A stretch of DNA of 56,942 nt. Source: Aequorivita vitellina (GTDB lineage: Bacteria > Bacteroidota > Bacteroidia > Flavobacteriales > Flavobacteriaceae). The position numbers and the translations under genes were made by a program. The stretch spans positions 1-56,942 of the forward strand of contig NZ_JAIRBA010000027.1 of the NCBI RefSeq assembly GCF_022008365.1, in the 5' to 3' direction. Position 1 is the stretch's first letter. Every line of letters starts with the position of its first letter. Below, piece after piece: positions 18,656-56,942 of the stretch. The notes under the pieces are model-generated. The model did no database searches. It was not told the origin of the DNA and worked only from the letters and a program-made list of their open reading frames with translations.

Positions 18656-18670
18656 AAATGCCAAATTTTA

Positions 18671-18732
18671 CAAATCTCAAATCTCAAATCTCAAATCACA
18701 AATCGCAAATCGCAAATCACAAATTCCAAATC
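18671..18732. repeat. AAATCTC heptamer array
   Basis: At least seven 7-bp units of the type AAATCTC / AAATCAC / AAATCGC follow each other, decaying towards AAATTCC and CGAATCAA to about 18780. The same heptamer family recurs at 28213-28238 and 54576-54612 (reverse orientation) and at 28594-28672. Confidence 0.85.
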
Positions 18733-18800
18733 CACGAATTAACGAATCAACCAAACAACAATTCCCGAATCAACGAATCTCAATTCCCAATAGTTTTCGT

Positions 18801-20513: not shown

Positions 20514-22982
20514 ATGAGCGAGGACTTCGAAAAAAATGAAAACCCCATCACCTTTGATTTTAAAGGTTTTCTCTTGCGGCTTTTGCACCACTGGCCGTTG
20601 TTTTTAGTTTCGTATATTATTGCTTTTGGCATAGCGTACTACGTGAATGTTCGCAAACTGCCAATTTATATTATGGAGAATACGATCTCTATAAAAGACG
20701 ATCAAAACCCTTTTTTTACCAGCAATACCAGTCTTACTTTTAATTGGGGCGGAACTACGGACAAGGTTAACACCGCTGTTATTTCGTTGCGGTCGCGATC
20801 GCACAACGAAAAAGTAGTAGAACGGTTGCAGTATTATATGACGTATTTGCGAGATGGCAAGTACCAACAAGTAAATGCCTATAAGCAAACCCCTTTTGTT
20901 GTAGATGTTGATGCTTCAAGGTCACAGATGCTAAATGAGCAAATTAAAGTTGTTTTTAAAGATTCTATTAATTTTGAATTGAGCGTCGCTTTTGAAACGA
21001 GTAAAAACATCAGCCTACAGAATTACAGCAATAAGGAAATTAGCACTCAATTTATTGATGCTGGCACCTATTCGCATTCGTATAAAATTGGGGAGCGTAT
21101 TCAGTTGCCTTTTTTCAGTGGCACATTTAGAGCAAATCCTGATGTTGTTTCCAGTCCCGGTACGCCTTATTATATAGTTTTTAGAAATTTTGATGGGGTA
21201 GTGCAGCGCTATTCAGGAATTCGGGTTGATGCCGAAAGCAAAGGTTCTTCGGTTTTAAACATGCGACTCACCGGAAATAACAAGGCCGAGCTGGTTGATT
21301 ATTTAAATGCGTCGGTACGTGTGTTAAGCGAAGATATGCTGGAGCGTAAAAATCTTTTCGCTACTAAAACAATTAAGTTTATAGATAGTAGTCTCGCTAT
21401 TAAATCGGCTGAACTTTCTACGGTTGAAGATGAGTTAAACCAGTTTAAAAACAAAAATGCCATCTTCGATCTTGAAAGCGAGGGCACGGAAATAAATACG
21501 AAATTAAACGAATTAGATCTCCGCAAAGAAGCAGCTACCCGCGAATTGAATTATTACAACACCCTGGAAAATTACCTGACGAATAGAACAGATTACAAAG
21601 ATGTGCCGGCACCTTCTGTTGCGGGCATATCGGAGGCTAGCGTAGTAAGTGGAGTTGGAAAAATAATTGCATTAGCCGAGGAGCGCAACAAACTTCAGTA
21701 TTCTTTTAAGGAAGGAGCCCCTATTTTTAGCGATATAGACCGGCAAATCAATGCGGTGAAAACCGTGTTGTTAGAAAATATTCGCTCTTCAAAAAGTTTA
21801 AAGAATCAGGAACTCGCCTCTATTAATCGCGATATTGGCAAGTATGAAGCCGAAATACGAAAACTTCCGAAGGAACAGCAAGGCCTTTTAAATATTGAGC
21901 GACGCTACAATTTAAGTCAGGGGGCCTATAATCTATTTTTAGAAAAACGCAGTGAAGCAGGTTTGGTAAAGGCCGCCAATGTAAGCGATGTGATGGTGAT
22001 AGATTCGGCGAAAGACACTGGCGGCGGACAAATTGGTCCGAATACGCAATTAAATTATATGATGGCTGCCTTGTTGGGCGGATTGTTTCCTTTTCTGTTT
22101 GTGTTCTTGCGTGTGTTTTTCGACACCAAAATTAGCAAGGTGAAGGACTTGGAGCGCGTTACATCAATTCCCTTGTTAGGAATTATCGGAAAAAGTCCGA
22201 TAGATAGCAATTTAATCGTCCTTGAGAAACCGAAATCTGCTATAGCTGAAGGATTTAGGGCCTTGCGGTCTAGTTTGCAATTTATATATAAAAAGCAGGG
22301 AATAAAGGGGGCAAAGACGGTGTTGGTAACTAGTTCGGTAAGTGGCGAGGGAAAAACATTTTGCTCCATCAACCTTGCTTCGGTGTTTGCATTAAGCGAA
22401 AAGAAAACTGTATTGGTGGGCCTCGATCTTCGGAAGCCTAAGATATTTGGCGATTTCAATATCAATAATGATGTGGGAGTGGTGAATTTTCTAATAAATG
22501 AAGCGGATTTTGATGCTGTAATTCAAAAGACGGAAATCGATTATTTGGATGTTATCACATCGGGTCCCATTCCACCAAATCCTTCCGAATTACTAATAGG
22601 CGAAAAACTAGATGAACTAATTGATGGGTTGAAGGAGCGCTACGACTATATTATTTTGGATTCACCTCCTTTGGGAATTGTTTCAGATTCCTTAGAACTT
22701 ATGAAACACGTAGATGCGACTCTCTATATGGCACGTTTTAATTATACGCATAAGAATATGTTTGCCTTCGTCAATGAAAAGTATAAAACTGGAGAGGTGA
22801 AACATATAAGTATTGTGTTAAACGACTATATGGAAAAATCGGGCCGCGTTTACGGTTATGGCTACGGTTACGGTTACGGTTACGGCTATGGAAGCTACGG
22901 AAATTACGGAACTGGCTATCACGACAAAGTAAAACCTTCTTCGGTTTTAGATAGGATTAAGCGGGTTTTTACACGGAAATAA
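20514..22982 (+). CDS. Wzc-like tyrosine-protein kinase / polysaccharide co-polymerase
   Basis: This 822-residue inner-membrane BY-kinase controls polysaccharide chain length and export with the OPX protein. A first membrane helix (about 24-43) follows a short cytosolic tail. A long periplasmic Wzz/GNVR region with coiled coils spans about 45-510, and a second helix spans about 513-535. The kinase has Walker A SSVSGEGKT (about 605-613), Walker A' GLDLRKP and Walker B YIILDSPP. The tail holds seven consecutive Tyr-Gly pairs and three more tyrosines before the last 20 residues, the autophosphorylation cluster. It follows wza after 3 bases. A repeat array begins 19 bases after its stop. Confidence 0.95.
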   Translation: MSEDFEKNENPITFDFKGFLLRLLHHWPLFLVSYIIAFGIAYYVNVRKLPIYIMENTISIKDDQNPFFTSNTSLTFNWGGTTDKVNTAVISLRSRSHNEKVVERLQYYMTYLRDGKYQQVNAYKQTPFVVDVDASRSQMLNEQIKVVFKDSINFELSVAFETSKNISLQNYSNKEISTQFIDAGTYSHSYKIGERIQLPFFSGTFRANPDVVSSPGTPYYIVFRNFDGVVQRYSGIRVDAESKGSSVLNMRLTGNNKAELVDYLNASVRVLSEDMLERKNLFATKTIKFIDSSLAIKSAELSTVEDELNQFKNKNAIFDLESEGTEINTKLNELDLRKEAATRELNYYNTLENYLTNRTDYKDVPAPSVAGISEASVVSGVGKIIALAEERNKLQYSFKEGAPIFSDIDRQINAVKTVLLENIRSSKSLKNQELASINRDIGKYEAEIRKLPKEQQGLLNIERRYNLSQGAYNLFLEKRSEAGLVKAANVSDVMVIDSAKDTGGGQIGPNTQLNYMMAALLGGLFPFLFVFLRVFFDTKISKVKDLERVTSIPLLGIIGKSPIDSNLIVLEKPKSAIAEGFRALRSSLQFIYKKQGIKGAKTVLVTSSVSGEGKTFCSINLASVFALSEKKTVLVGLDLRKPKIFGDFNINNDVGVVNFLINEADFDAVIQKTEIDYLDVITSGPIPPNPSELLIGEKLDELIDGLKERYDYIILDSPPLGIVSDSLELMKHVDATLYMARFNYTHKNMFAFVNEKYKTGEVKHISIVLNDYMEKSGRVYGYGYGYGYGYGYGSYGNYGTGYHDKVKPSSVLDRIKRVFTRK
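22851..22919 (+). repeat. In-gene TACGGT hexamer repeat coding the Tyr-Gly tail
   Basis: Seven TA(C/T)GG(N) hexamers in tandem encode (Tyr-Gly)7 in the kinase tail and are followed by SYG, NYG and TGY. Three adjacent units are identical (TACGGT), so copy number could change by slippage without loss of frame. Confidence 0.8.
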
Positions 22983-23001
22983 CATTGCCTACATCCTTGC
23001 G

Positions 23002-23386
23002 AAACATCCCCCTAAATCCCCCTTCAAAGGGGGACTTTTTGGCCTGTGATTAGGTTGGGGGTTTGGGTGTTTTGGGTTTTCTTTTCGCTTTAAATACGGT
23101 GCTCCTAAGCCTAACCACATTATAAATCAAATCCGAATCTACGCCTCCCTTTCAAGGGAGGTTGGGTGGGATGTTTTTTTTGGGGGTTGTTGGTTTTTAT
23201 TGAATCTCGGCGAAACATCCCCCTAAATCCCCCTTCGAAGGGGGACTTTTGGCCTGTGATTAGGTTGGGGGTATGGGGGTTTTGGATTTTCTTTTCGCTT
23301 TGAATACAGAGTTTATAAATCTAACTCATTTTAAATTATATCCGAATCTAGCTCCTCCCTTTGAAGGGAGGTTGGGTGGGATGTTT
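23002..23386. repeat. Repeat array, first part: two complete 175-bp elements
   Basis: Two head-to-tail elements lie at 23002-23176 and 23213-23386. Each starts AAACATCC and ends GGATGTTT. Near the left end is a hairpin of the form CCCCCTTCGAAGGGGG and near the right end CTCCCTTTGAAGGGAG. The right end, reverse-complemented, aligns with the left end over about 33 bases with about 25 matches, so the element has long imperfect inverted ends. About 36 bases of spacer (GGTTGTTGG and similar) separate neighbours, giving a 211-214 bp period. The array begins 19 bases after the wzc stop. Confidence 0.92.
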
Positions 23387-23432
23387 TCTATTGTAGGGTG
23401 GGTTTAGGAGGAATGATTTTTAATATCTTTAT

Positions 23433-23798
23433 ATGGTGGCAAACAAGATTATTCCATATAATAAGCATCTCAAACCTATAGCAAGGGAACTTCGAAAGAA
23501 TATGACACCTTGTGAGCAATTGATTTGGAAAAAAATTAGAAGGAAATCTTTGGGTTTAGAATTTCACAGACAAGTTCCGATATTGAATTATATTGTTGAC
23601 TTTTATTGCCACGAAATCGGACTAGTTATTGAAATCGATGGTAGCGTACACGACCCTAATTTTTTAGAAGATGCGGAGAGACAAGGCAAAATGGAGAAGT
23701 ACGGTTTGCGGTTTTTGCGTTTTTCCAATGATGAAGTATTAAATAATATGGAAAACGTTTTGGTGACAATTCGAAATTATATTGAAGAAAATACCTGA
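23433..23798 (+). CDS. DUF559 (Vsr-like) endonuclease-domain protein inside a repeat array
   Basis: This 121-residue protein matches DUF559, a Vsr-like branch of the PD-(D/E)XK nuclease fold. It contains ELRKNMTPCEQLIWKKIRRK (about 18-37), FHRQVPILNYIVDFYC (about 44-59) and LVIEIDGSVHD (about 65-75), which supply the likely catalytic Asp (VDF), Glu and Asp (EIDG). The end is KYGLRFLRFSNDEVLNN. No methylase or helicase is adjacent. The gene is flanked on both sides by copies of one repeat element, and its TGA stop shares its A with the first base of the downstream repeat. A role in repeat mobility or maintenance, like RAYT transposases with REPs, is a hypothesis. Confidence 0.9.
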   Translation: MVANKIIPYNKHLKPIARELRKNMTPCEQLIWKKIRRKSLGLEFHRQVPILNYIVDFYCHEIGLVIEIDGSVHDPNFLEDAERQGKMEKYGLRFLRFSNDEVLNNMENVLVTIRNYIEENT

Positions 23799-25146
23799 AA
23801 CATCCCCCTAAATCCCCCTTCGAAGGGGGACTTTTGGCCTGTGCTTGAGTTGGGGGTAAGGGGGTTTTGGACTTGCTTTTTGTTTTAAATTAACCTTGCG
23901 AAACATCCCCCTAAATCCCCCCTTCGAAGGGGGACTTTTTGGCCTGTGCTTGAGTTGGGGTATGGGTGTTTTTGGATTTACTTATCGCTTTAAATACAGA
24001 GCTTACAAATCTAACCACATTATAAATAGAATCCGAATCTAGCCCCTCCCTTTGAAGGGAGGTTGGGTGGGATGTTTCGGTTTTGGGGTTGTTAGTTTTT
24101 ATTAAATCTCGGCGAAACATCCCCCTAAATCCCCCTTGAAAGGGGGACTTTTTGGCCTGTGCTTGAGTTGGTGGTATAGGTGTTTTTGAATTTTCTTTTC
24201 GCTTTGAATACGGTGATCTTAAATCTAACTTCATTATAAATCAAATCCGATTCTACTCCTCCCTTTGAAGGGAGGCTGGGTGGGATGTTTTTTGTTTTGG
24301 GATTGTTAGTTTTTATTGAATCTCGGCGAAACATCCTCCTAAATCCCCCTTCAAAGGGGGGACTTTTGGCCTGTGCTTGAGTTGGTGTCATGGGAGTTTT
24401 GGATTTTCTTTTCGCTTTAAATACAGAGCTCCTAAATCTAACCACATTATAAATAGAATCCGAATCTAGCCCCTCCCTTTGAAGGGAGGCTGGGTGGGAT
24501 GTTTTTTGTTTTGGGGTTGTTGGTTTTGATTAAATCGCGGCGAAACATCCCCCTAAATCCCCCTTCAAAGGGGTACTTTTTGGCCTGTGATTAGATTGGG
24601 GGTATGGGTGTTTTTCAATTTTCTTTTCGCTTTAAATACGGTGATCTTAAATCTAACTACATTGTAAATAGAATCCGAATCTACTCCTCCCTTTGAAGAG
24701 AGGCTGGGTGGGATGTTTTGTTCAAAGGGGAACTTTTTGGCCTGTGATTAGGTTGGGGGTATGGGTGTTTTTGGATTTACTTTTCGCTTTAAATACGGTG
24801 ATCCTAAATTTAACTACATTATAAATCAAATCCGAATCTACTCCTCCCTTTGAAGGGAGGTTGGGTGGGATGTTTTTGTTTTGGGATTGTTGGTTTTTAT
24901 TGAATCTCGGCGAAACATCCCCCTAAATCCCCCTTCGAAGGGGGACTTTTTGGCCTGTGCTTGAGTTTGGGGTATGGGGGTTTTGGGTTTACTTTTTGCT
25001 TTTAAAACAGAGTTCATAAATTAACCACATTATAAATCAAATCCGAATCTAGCTCCTCCCTTTGAAGGGAGGTTGGGTGGGATGTTTTGAGGCTGGGTAG
25101 GATGTTTTTTGTTTTGAATTTGTGAAGAGAGTTGGGTGGGATGTTT
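23798..25146. repeat. Repeat array, second part: seven elements and two extra right ends
   Basis: Copies lie at 23798-23890 (left part only), 23901-24077, 24115-24290, 24329-24504, 24543-24718, 24721-24875 (left end missing) and 24913-25087. Two further partial right ends follow (25089-25106 and 25126-25146). Starts at 23901, 24115, 24329 and 24543 are spaced exactly 214 bp. The unit also contains the constant inner text TTTTGGCCTGTG and TTCGCTTTAAATAC. All copies have the same orientation. The final GATGTTT touches the stop codon of the minus-strand regulator gene. The frames inside are repeat translations, not genes. Confidence 0.92.
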
Positions 25147-26988
25147 TTACAATTCTCGCATTAATTTTTCAAAGTCTTCATCGTTGTCTTGGAGGTGCAT
25201 TTTTGCTTTAATTCGATGTTTTGTGGCGGCAACTTTTTCTTTTGTTATGCCCATTAGGGAAGTAATTTCTTCGGTGGAAAGCTGTAGTTTTAAGAGGGAA
25301 CAGAAGGCGATGTCGTCTTCGGTGAGATTTGGAAACATTTGCTCTAGATTATAACCAAATTCGGGATGTACTTCTACAAATTTGGTTTTAAAATGCTTCC
25401 AATAATTTAACTGATTTAATGTAGAGACAATCCGTTCCGCAAATTCTTCAGATACTTCATTTTTATCGCTCGATTGGATTATATCTTTAATCTGTTTTTG
25501 AATATCTGCTACTTCCAAAGAAATTGCTACCAACTCCCGTTCTTTATCGGCGAGATTATTTTCTTTTTCGGCTAAAAGCTCTTGTTCCAATTCTTGGTTT
25601 TCCTTTAAAACCGAGTTAGCTTTTTCCAAGTTTGCAACAGCTACTTTTTGCAGTGCCAGTCGCTTTTTGTTATACATAAATATAAGAATGCTTAAAATTA
25701 GAATTAGAGCCGTAAGCAGCCAACTGAGAATTGTAATGGTTCGCTGCTTTGTATTGTACCGTTTAAGCATCTCATTGCTGTTTTGCAGCGCGATATTTTT
25801 ATCTCTCTGAAATTTATTTTGATACGATTCTTCCAGCTGCTTTATTTTTACCCGATCTATGGCAGACTGCATGGAATCTTTTAAGTAGTCGATACGGTCG
25901 AAAAGATTGAGCGACTTTTCAAATTGTTTTGTATTGCGGTAGGTTTCACGTGCATTAAGCAAAAAGCTCAACTTATCTTGGGCATTCATAGCAAGTTCAA
26001 AATTGTTGGTGCTGTTTTTAACACGTTCAATCACTCTAATGGCCGTATTGTAGTCTTTTTGAGCGTTTAAAAAACTGAGGTAATCGCTGGCAATTTGCAA
26101 AAATCGGGGAGACTGTGATTTCTGTAAATAATTAAACGATTCCGAATAAGCCTCTTTCGCTAAAACGGGCCTATTGGTCGCTTTGTAAATATTTCCCAAC
26201 TTGCCCCAAGCCACATACATATATTCCAAATTCTTTTTCTCGGTAAGACCTTCTTTAGCTTCCAATAAACGCTTTTCGCCTTCTTTAATATTTCCCAGTT
26301 CAACCAAGCTTTCGGCGTAGGAAAGTAGGGTGAGGTAATAGGAGGGAGCTTTATCTTCAGCAAATCGTGGAAGCACTTGTTCGTATAAATCTACCGCAAA
26401 CTCATAATTTCCGGTGTTGTAGTAGGTGTTGGCGAGCTTTTGTTGTAAAATATACAACCGTTCATCGCCTATTTCTTTAAAAATTTCAATGGCGCGTTTA
26501 AGGTTTGTAATCGCTTTTTCCTTTTCGCCCATATAGTTATAATTGGACGCCATTTCGCCATATACTACGCCTTCGCCGCTGCGATCGCCGTATTCTTGGT
26601 AGATTTCCATAGCTTGTTTAAGTGCCGCCAATGATTGGGGGTAGTTGGCATAATTGCGGTAGTTAATTGCGCTGTTGGCGTATAAATCGGCTTTTAGGGT
26701 TGGGGATTCATCAGCTAAGGCTATTCCTTTTTTAAAGTAATATGACGAAGAATCGTAAATTGCGAGTTGACTGTAAGTAATGCCGAGCTTGCTATACGTG
26801 AGGGCTACCAGCGTATCATCGCGTTCCTGCGAATACTCCAATAATTTAAACAAATAAATTTTTGCCGAATCTGGTTGTTTAAAAAGATACTTTTGTATTT
26901 CGGTTTCTAACTCTGCTATTTTATCGTTTTGAGCGAGGAGAGAACTGCTTAAGAACAGCAGAAATATGGGGAGGCAAAAATGTTTCAT
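25147..26988 (-). CDS. TPR sensor with C-terminal LuxR-like HTH
   Basis: This protein has about 613 residues from the preferred start at 26988, which gives a signal peptide (MKHFCLPIFLLFLSSSLLAQ). An upstream in-frame start at 27057 would bury that signal. About ten TPR units fill residues 20-390. A single membrane helix (SWLLTALILILSILIFMY) lies near 423-440, then a coiled coil (about 450-505), then a C-terminal HTH with LTEDDIAFCSLLKLQLST and TSLMGITKEKVAATKHRIKAK. This is a known Bacteroidota layout for membrane-bound one-component regulators. The gene is divergent from the export/glycosyltransferase locus, which makes it a candidate regulator of that locus. Its stop codon abuts the repeat array. 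Confidence 0.85.
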   Translation of the reverse strand: MKHFCLPIFLLFLSSSLLAQNDKIAELETEIQKYLFKQPDSAKIYLFKLLEYSQERDDTLVALTYSKLGITYSQLAIYDSSSYYFKKGIALADESPTLKADLYANSAINYRNYANYPQSLAALKQAMEIYQEYGDRSGEGVVYGEMASNYNYMGEKEKAITNLKRAIEIFKEIGDERLYILQQKLANTYYNTGNYEFAVDLYEQVLPRFAEDKAPSYYLTLLSYAESLVELGNIKEGEKRLLEAKEGLTEKKNLEYMYVAWGKLGNIYKATNRPVLAKEAYSESFNYLQKSQSPRFLQIASDYLSFLNAQKDYNTAIRVIERVKNSTNNFELAMNAQDKLSFLLNARETYRNTKQFEKSLNLFDRIDYLKDSMQSAIDRVKIKQLEESYQNKFQRDKNIALQNSNEMLKRYNTKQRTITILSWLLTALILILSILIFMYNKKRLALQKVAVANLEKANSVLKENQELEQELLAEKENNLADKERELVAISLEVADIQKQIKDIIQSSDKNEVSEEFAERIVSTLNQLNYWKHFKTKFVEVHPEFGYNLEQMFPNLTEDDIAFCSLLKLQLSTEEITSLMGITKEKVAATKHRIKAKMHLQDNDEDFEKLMREL

Positions 26989-28201: not shown

Positions 28202-28212
28202 GTTTGAGAAAT

Positions 28213-28672
28213 GAGATTTGAGATTTGAGATTTGAGATGTTAGAAATGCGACTTAAGAGGGTATGACGTAGGACAAATGTAGGTTAGAGATATGATTATT
28301 TAACGAATTAACACTATAATTGTAGATGTGAGAATGCGTTTTGGAAGTTATTTTTTTATATGTGGGACTAGTATGATAGTAGGGGTTGAGTAGGGATTGA
28401 CTACCATGAATGTAGCACTCGAGTAGCATTAAAGGTATAGGAACCATACATTAATACAACATGAATGTAACATTAATGCATGTTGAACTATGCATTCAAA
28501 ATTTTGAAAAGTACATAGAAGGTATTAAAAAGGGCTGTTATTTTTGAAGAAATGGGGGGGGAATTGCAAATGATAAATGACTAATGACAAATTGCAAATC
28601 TCAAATCTCAAATCTCAAATCTCAAAAAAGGTAAATCACAAATTACAAATCTCAAATCTCAAATCTCAAATA
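28213..28672. repeat. Inverted AAATCTC heptamer arrays around a gene-free segment
   Basis: Bases 28213-28238 (GAGATTT units) are the exact reverse complement of 28598-28623 (AAATCTC units), a perfect 26-bp inverted repeat about 360 bases apart. A second AAATCTC run lies at 28644-28672. The enclosed segment has no supported gene. It contains a G8 run (28554-28561) and several ATGCAT/ATGAATGTA-like words. The array on the right runs directly into a truncated S23-type gene fragment. Confidence 0.85.
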
Positions 28673-28691
28673 CCAGTTTTTTATTAAAAGT

Positions 28692-28896
28692 GAATTGTAT
28701 AACTTAATGTCACAATTTAAAAGGGCTTCAGTTTCAATTGCTTTAAACACCGTTGAAGGACAGGGCGACACTAATGCGCACTTTAATAGATTGCTACAAG
28801 TAGTTTTAGATTGGGTGAAAGAATGTGTAGTATACGCTACCATAGCAAAAAGGCTTTATTTCCGAAGAACAAGATTTTAATATTAGAACTCATTGA
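28692..28896 (+). pseudogene. Fragment of an S23 / four-helix-bundle protein gene
   Basis: The frame from 28692 reads ELYNLMSQFKRASVSIALNT, then VEGQGDTNAHFNRLLQVVL and VKECVVYATIAKRL. This is the middle of the four-helix-bundle (23S rRNA intervening-sequence protein) family. The N-terminal helix is missing, being replaced by heptamer repeat. After KRLYF the frame shifts; the neighbouring frame continues SEEQDFNIRTH, as the family would, and then hits TGA at 28894-28896. Truncation plus frameshift plus stop mark it as a decayed gene. No gene is visible between it and 29051. Confidence 0.7.
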
Positions 28897-56365: not shown

Positions 56366-56942
56366 AAACATCCCCCAAAATCCCCCTTGAAAGGAGAACT
56401 TTTTGGCCAGTGCTTGAGTTGGGGGTATGGGGGGTTGGACTTGCTTTTAGTTTTGGGTTGATGGTTTTAATTAAATCTTGGCGAAACATCCCCCTAAATC
56501 CCCTTCGAAGGGGGACTTTTGGCCTGTGCTTGAGTTGAGGGCATGGGTGTTTTGGACATGATTTTCGCTTTAAATACGGTGATCTTAAATCTAACTTCAT
56601 TATAAATAGAATCCGAATCTAGCTCCTCCCTTTGAAGGGAGGTTGGGTGGGATGTTTTTTTTGGGGGTTGTTGGTTTTGATTAAATCTCGGCGAAACATC
56701 CCCCTAAATCCCCCCTTCGAAGGGGGACTTTTTGGCCTGTGATTAGGTTGGGGGTTTGGGTGTTTTTGGGTTTACTTTTCGCTTTGAATATGGTGCTCAT
56801 AAATCTAACAACATTATAAATCAAATCTGAATCTAGCCCCTCCCTTCGAAGGGAGGCTGGGTGGAATGTTCTTTGTTTTGGGATTGTGGGTTTTGATTTA
56901 ACCTTGTGAAACATCCCCCTAAATCCCCCTTCAAAGGGGGAC
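56366..56942. repeat. Second copy of the 176-bp repeat array, cut by the window end
   Basis: Elements lie at 56366-56455 (left part only), 56484-56657, 56694-56870 and from 56909 to the window end. They have the same AAACATCC/GGATGTTT ends, paired hairpins, inner text and orientation as the array at 23002-25146. Spacing is 210-215 bp. This array follows the polysaccharide locus on its right side, so the two arrays are direct repeats bracketing it. Confidence 0.92.

Follow-up and report, generated by a model that had tools for sequence, protein, structure and literature searches.

The closest described relatives of the locus reported here, a small DUF559 nuclease gene embedded in an array of C/G-rich hairpin repeats in Aequorivita vitellina, are the repetitive extragenic palindromes (REPs) with their REP-associated tyrosine transposases (RAYTs), the intrastrand triplex motifs of Escherichia coli and the Vsr-like endonucleases. 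In REP/RAYT systems (REPtrons, REPINs) a small DNA-processing gene lies between its own hairpin repeats, which carry an unpaired tag at one end and form paired inverted units; gene-less copies are found elsewhere, and REPs supply stop codons and occur inside genes (PMC3733652). The CGTC-tagged REPs are hairpin repeats reported without a dedicated transposase, and Di Nocera et al. 2013 left open which proteins serve the CGTC and untagged palindromes (PMC3733652). In E. coli the triplex motif is named BoxC, PIT or TM_ECO; motifs of the BoxC/PIT/triplex kind were first noted in the 1990s and are reported, in many copies, from over 260 genomes. Holder et al. 2015 list 23 such motifs in strain MG1655, link them to instability in E. 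coli and state that activities giving mobility were never found around them (PMC4666352).

The window analysed here is the whole 56,942-nt stretch of contig NZ_JAIRBA010000027.1. Its DUF559 gene fills one spacer between two repeat units, as the first-pass annotation of this DNA had recognised: the right end (RE) of the preceding unit stops at 23386, the left end (LE) of the following unit starts at 23798, and the TGA stop codon (23796-23798) takes its last letter from the first A of that left end. In this arrangement, as in its tagged hairpins, paired inverted ends, gene-less copies, repeat-supplied stop codon and repeats inside a gene, the system resembles REP/RAYT. It differs in that the gene between the repeats encodes a PD-(D/E)XK nuclease (by Pfam) and not a HuH Y1 tyrosine transposase, in that the tag is AAACATCC at the unit start, or another C-rich tract, instead of GTAG, and apparently also in its small number of dispersed copies (12 matches, the draft being split into 197 contigs). 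The window repeats also lack the CGTC tag; CCCCGTC is present in the repeats of some other DUF559 clades. Among the papers listed by full-text searches of an open-licence PMC library, none describes DUF559 with such repeats. We propose, with moderate confidence, that DUF559 and its flanking repeats form one small mobile system, driven by the nuclease and comparable to REP/RAYT but with a Vsr/homing-endonuclease fold.

The encoded protein matches the Pfam DUF559 profile PF04480 with E = 2.9e-31 and 108 bits (curated cut-off 20.6) over profile positions 3-108 of 109. As had been noted from the sequence at first pass, it retains D56 and E67-I-D-G70, and the D...ExDG...H core of DUF559 is intact; D56, E67, G70 and H73 are invariant across 47 aligned sequences, and D69 is kept in 90% or more. 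Against the YcjD equivalog (NCBIfam PRK09767) it scores 66.9 bits, below the cut-off of 218, and by sequence it has the domain common to YcjD without being a YcjD orthologue. YcjD itself was treated in 2005 as a PD-(D/E)XK relative that detects Vsr (PMC1189080). In model comparison the predicted fold matches Vsr and the Vsr-like homing endonuclease I-Bth0305I. The window gene does not lie in an intron or intein. The family has a solved member, 3hrl, with which the window protein has family membership and fold in common. The nuclease is under purifying constraint (pN/pS 0.11-0.25 among window-clade genes, with synonymous sites near saturation). DUF559 domains also occur within long open reading frames (ORFs) of 850-1260 aa in many relatives (L011, L012, L014, L017, L020, L022), and DUF559 relatives are found on 23 viral-collection contigs (L149-L171), many of about 6-7 kb.

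The association of DUF559 genes with flanking repeats was assessed by the best local alignment, for each gene, of the 300-bp upstream against the 300-bp downstream flank, a gene passing this flank test when, in either orientation, its score exceeded the 95th percentile of the controls. As controls we took 317 ORFs (90 aa or longer) from 20 arbitrary 20-kb stretches in 13 genomes. A genus and phylum set of 52 genes was obtained from 57 target loci, six of which gave no ORF by the motif filter (L047, L050, L113, L121, L124, L127) while L049 gave two, L051 and L103 being scored from a truncated frame. A named set of 79 genes comprised the best 80 of 588 with L249 (contig end) left out; its L172 is the same locus as L054 of the first set. 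The flank test was passed by 45/52 and 53/79 DUF559 genes compared with 27/317 controls, C/G hairpins stood on both sides of 19/52 and 38/79 compared with 0/317, and C/G tracts lay within 100 nt on both sides of 31/52 and 45/79 compared with 6/317 (Fisher p of 2.5e-18 or less for these contrasts, the loci not being independent). A C/G tract also lay within 10 nt of the stop codon in 22/52 and 24/79 DUF559 genes and in 5/317 controls; the pairing of the DUF559 stop with a repeat is more than chance. Stop codons abut repeats of other types too: in Deinococcus (L283, L284), for example, CCCCTCCCC comes directly after TGA or TAA, and in Picosynechococcus (L279, L280) CCCCTAAATCCCC comes directly after TAG.

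This enrichment, which the first-pass annotation had proposed looking for across Bacteroidota, extends beyond that phylum. From a plasmid collection 22 of 39 matches were taken, L286 being left out as its DUF559 lies inside a long ORF. Among genes from Cyanobacteria, Deinococcus and Alphaproteobacteria together with E. coli ycjD, 12/16 passed the flank test, compared with 14/159 controls from four of the same plasmids. Six further loci showed clear repeats on both sides of the gene in Neisseria, Deinococcus aetherius and Sinorhizobium, upstream only in Shinella and Sphingomonas, and downstream only in Photobacterium. The pairing of DUF559 with repeats is general and extends to Cyanobacteria, Deinococcus and Proteobacteria. 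In the hairpin loops of some repeats (L048, L063, L253) we also saw CTTCGACAAGCTCAGCACATCG-type palindromes, which look like a second repeat lying inside the first.

Repeat type tracks the relatedness of the nuclease, clearly only at 70% identity or more, which is how far the test suggested earlier, whether DUF559 phylogeny follows repeat type, came out in favour. Across 49 loci (the 52 minus L051, L118, L128 and the second L049 gene, plus L050) nuclease identity correlated with flank similarity (Mantel r = 0.358, 0/2000 permutations). Flank similarity had a median of 82 for the 33 pairs at 70% identity or more, a value inflated for some pairs because neighbouring genes are common to both loci, and of 27 for pairs at 50-70%. 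Where one genome holds DUF559 genes of different clades, their flanks are unlike (median score 25, 12 pairs). The common neighbours arise because one clade seems, by eye, fixed in a conserved place beside an apparent helicase gene and 4/5 window-clade genes lie downstream of wzc.

A search that started from the repeat led back to the nuclease. The pattern CACCCCTCTTN{3,16}AAGAGGGGAGC gave eight matches in 28 genomes, five of which flank already known DUF559 genes in G001, G003 and G004. Two more lie 609 bp apart in G042 with a previously unseen DUF559 gene between them, and the eighth has no DUF559 nearby, making 7/8 beside DUF559; a second pattern gave 2/2. Because known DUF559 flanks served as the basis for all three patterns used, most of these matches are circular and only the G042 pair was unseen; that gene is the cleanest test of specificity. 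A tblastn search of 18 repeat places with seven DUF559 proteins (E 1e-3) found the intact G042 gene at one and neither DUF559 nor a remnant at 17. In 24 genus genomes, with the window clade assigned by eye and four further genomes outside the DUF559 search, the window-type repeat had 33 matches in the five genomes with that clade (12, 11, 5, 4 and 1) and 13 in the 19 without it. The genomic checks proposed at first pass were mostly favourable. In G012, where the array at the DUF559 gene is a variant, 0/5 window-type matches lie beside that gene. The genome profile search misses genes: E. coli, one of 14 control genomes, gave a Y1_Tnp match and no PF04480 match, although MG1655 ycjD scores 167 bits as DUF559. 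DUF559 absences are therefore uncertain and presence counts are lower bounds.

Comparison of sites bears on mobility. Between the converging stop codons where the window carries 2.16 kb with the array and DUF559, G008 has 40 bp. In Deinococcus, cassettes made of a hairpin, DUF559 and an inverted hairpin occupy different hpa-operon junctions in two species, each species being without DUF559 at the other's junction, and a third hpa operon, paa and suf hold further copies. An ORF that we take to be TrpE-like contains a lone left end in 5/23 aligned orthologues, where it adds 30 nt in frame and leaves the ORF intact; G020 has a different C/G-rich insert at the same place. A study of Legionella evolution identifies, as recombination hotspots, segments that hold a transposase together with DUF559 (PMC12308824); this fits DUF559 mobility, and the passages on them name no repeat.

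The features of the window locus are collected in Table 1. The array, with a unit of about 175 bp, fills the 2.16-kb interval from a gene ending at 22982, presumably a wzc-like tyrosine kinase, to a converging TPR gene ending at 25147. Each unit has a left end AAACATCCCCCTAAATCCCCCTTCGAAGGGGGACTTTT and a right end CTCCTCCCTTTGAAGGGAGGTTGGGTGGGATGTTT, imperfect inverted copies of each other with one hairpin in each. Terminal inverted repeats of the kind that mark miniature inverted-repeat transposable elements and classical transposons are thus present (LE/RE identity 76-84% in the pairs listed) and are longer in Deinococcus L284. With up to six differences allowed, the cluster at 23002-25087 holds eight LE and eight RE, all oriented as the DUF559 gene, and no copy in the opposite orientation was found in the window. 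No DUF559 was seen in the second cluster, which is cut by the contig end. The source draft genome (G000; 3.63 Mb, 197 contigs) has seven of its 12 repeat matches at the DUF559 locus. The window's contig ends inside a repeat copy, and on contigs C128 (78-104) and C164 (117-143) a copy lies less than 120 bases from the contig start, which makes a larger actual number of copies probable; gaps may also hide further DUF559 genes.

Table 1 Features of the DUF559 locus and of the second repeat cluster in the window.
Feature	Position	Strand	Remarks
Two-ended hairpin element 1	23002..23176	+	LE 23002-23039, RE 23142-23176
Two-ended hairpin element 2, immediately 5' of DUF559	23213..23386	+	LE 23213-23250, RE 23352-23386
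DUF559 gene (PD-(D/E)XK, Vsr-like nuclease)	23433..23798	+	121 aa; A of TGA stop is part of next repeat
Truncated element 3, begins at DUF559 stop codon	23798..23900	+	LE 23798-23835 only
Two-ended element 4	23901..24077	+	
Two-ended element 5	24115..24290	+	
Two-ended element 6	24329..24504	+	
Two-ended element 7	24543..24718	+	
Element 8, truncated left end	24719..24875	+	RE 24841-24875
Two-ended element 9, then RE fragments to about 25123	24913..25087	+	
Second cluster, same repeat as DUF559 array	56366..56942	+	4 LE, 2 RE; ends at contig end

Other identities for the locus were considered and set aside. Six Rfam matches (E up to 1) in 22900-25200 all scored under the gathering score, the best having E = 0.069, which did not support an RNA family. 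As for a defence system, PADLOC gave a weak match only (DpdF, 15.8 bits). A search of the ORFs for a hairpin-peptide motif found none. Elsewhere in the window, CAAATCT-type heptad arrays lie at 18656-18744 and 28203-28684; the second adjoins a 61-aa ORF (28695-28880), probably a remnant, whose start MSQFKRASVSIALNTVEGQG resembles what we take to be the signature of four-helix proteins.

On the G-rich strand, both array ends fit a purine-motif intrastrand triplex, with a pyrimidine stem, a purine stem and a mirrored purine stem, as in BoxC/PIT/TM_ECO. We re-implemented the triplex rule from its publication (Y-R-mirror-R stems of 6 or more nt, loops of 1-6 nt); this version is stricter than the published one and misses the E. 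coli motif next to ycjD. It found 17 motifs in the window, all within the two arrays, and motifs in the flanks of 13/52, 3/79 and 14/21 DUF559 loci compared with 3/317 and 3/159 controls. The triplex motif marks a subset of DUF559 loci, and we rejected it as a universal feature given the 3/79 of the named set. The window repeats are tandem and clustered, unlike those of E. coli, and their sequence, TCCCCCTTCGAAGGGGGATTTAGGGGGA, departs from the TM_ECO consensus CCCTCNCCC...GGGNGAGGG. In MG1655, motif 9 of the published Table 1 (1,351,239-1,351,204; PMC4666352) lies in the gap between fabI and the DUF559 gene ycjD, 168 nt from ycjD; no BoxC-like repeat was seen upstream of ycjD. The chance of such proximity is estimated at about 0.4% (18 sites x 954 bp / 4.64 Mb), for a single observation. 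A 49-nt BoxC query matches 5376/5426 E. coli genomes at a median of 19 places. In Neisseria the repeats on either side of the DUF559 gene are of the CCTCTCCCTGTGGGAGAGAG type and not of the CGTC type, and a link to CGTC-REPs or dRS3 was dropped.

Several observations weigh against a nuclease-driven mobile system. The flank test was failed by 26/79 named and 7/52 other DUF559 loci; E. coli ycjD, one of the four failures among the 16, has BoxC on one side only. The triplex form is uncommon among the named loci (3/79, controls 3/317; p = 0.097), the third repeat pattern had only 2/8 matches beside DUF559, and pairs from different genomes at >=50% identity have a median flank score of 29 against 25 for same-genome pairs of other clades, a weak difference (p = 0.04). 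The gene is mostly stable in the genus, with 4/5 window-clade genes downstream of wzc. Empty and filled sites are too diverged for a target-site duplication to be recognised, and none was. Dispersed copies appear to be few, and those at the DUF559 locus share one orientation, an outcome for which tandem duplication would be enough. In G016 and G017, arrays or single copies remain in the absence of the cognate gene: at the window site G016 has 415 bp that contain three decayed elements but lack DUF559. The low copy number, uniform orientation and gene-less arrays also fit local tandem duplication after rare insertion. A hydrolytic nuclease cannot join DNA by itself, and cleavage and transposition by DUF559 are proposed here. 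The idea of the first-pass annotation that a nuclease may drive these repeats as a RAYT drives REPs is partly supported, by enrichment and clade tracking, and the driving itself is still proposed; the gene-less array and solitary copies that would speak against the idea do occur, beside the enrichment.

Some insertion sequences target REPs, and DUF559 might likewise insert or survive where hairpin repeats arise and spread alone, through slippage or triplex-induced breaks. The arrays without DUF559, in G016 and at the right end of the window, the single orientation of the cluster copies and the reported instability of BoxC/TM motifs in E. coli (PMC4666352) would all suit a passenger. We nevertheless consider this unlikely, as repeat type tracks nuclease relatedness, different clades within a genome have unlike flanks, and the first repeat pattern was found almost only beside DUF559.

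It is improbable, in our view, that DUF559 is instead a Vsr-like repair nuclease clearing or mending hairpins and triplexes, with the repeats serving as terminators or insulators and proximity reflecting regulation. The predicted Vsr fold would suit such a role, as would the Caulobacter DUF559 protein VsrA, which causes an SOS response in cells without cytosine methyltransferase (PMC12907096). A repair enzyme acting in trans, however, need not sit within its substrates or vary in repeat type by clade, and the cassettes in the hpa and suf operons look inserted.

Repeat-flanking is not unique to DUF559, and any small mobile gene in these genomes might gather flanking repeats, with nothing special about the nuclease. 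S23 four-helix genes of the genus passed the flank test in 25/29 cases and Y1 transposase genes in 11/18. Their repeats are of other kinds, however, with C/G hairpins on both sides in 0/29 and 0/18, and ordinary genes of 250 aa or less passed in only 13/130; we regard this explanation too as having little probability. The S23/four-helix genes (PF05635; L383-L412) mostly have similar repeats on both sides, which by eye are in many cases short AT-rich units in tandem, and are another small gene family with its own repeats. That a RAYT-type Y1 transposase elsewhere in the genome moves the repeats with DUF559 as cargo is very improbable: Y1_Tnp matches occur in 19/28 genus genomes, three of them in the window's own, yet window-type repeat ends lie at 1/30 Y1 loci, about 1.1 kb from the gene, no full-length Y1 gene has C/G hairpins on both sides, and G006 (with 10 repeat matches around DUF559) and G018, both drafts, have no Y1_Tnp match.

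If DUF559 and its repeats are one nuclease-driven system, recognition, cutting and copying of the repeat would most likely proceed as follows. The nuclease would recognise its own repeat by the hairpin (or triplex) that this forms when single-stranded or in a cruciform, and would nick it at or beside the C-rich tag. Repair or replication restart would then place a copy at the break, either of the repeat or of the whole repeat-gene-repeat cassette, or alternatively produce a tandem duplicate. Gene-less two-ended elements and single hairpins would be non-autonomous derivatives. The system would thus act like REP/RAYT or homing, with a hydrolytic PD-(D/E)XK nuclease replacing the transposase.

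The DUF559 family is thus a good candidate to supply the enzyme that a widespread class of orphan DNA repeats has lacked. More tentatively, and as a possibility we would not yet call probable, DUF559 proteins may be the long-missing drivers of a pan-bacterial class of repeats that form G/C-rich hairpins and intrastrand triplexes, E. coli BoxC among them; such repeats would spread by cutting of their own folded structure and copying by repair, with no transposase, integrase or reverse transcriptase. A candidate enzyme makes the question of BoxC mobility testable in E. coli K-12, which has ycjD and 23 mapped motifs. Should the proposal be true, hydrolytic Vsr-like nucleases would be able to maintain repeat families, and the DUF559 system would form a bridge between REP/RAYT elements and homing endonucleases.
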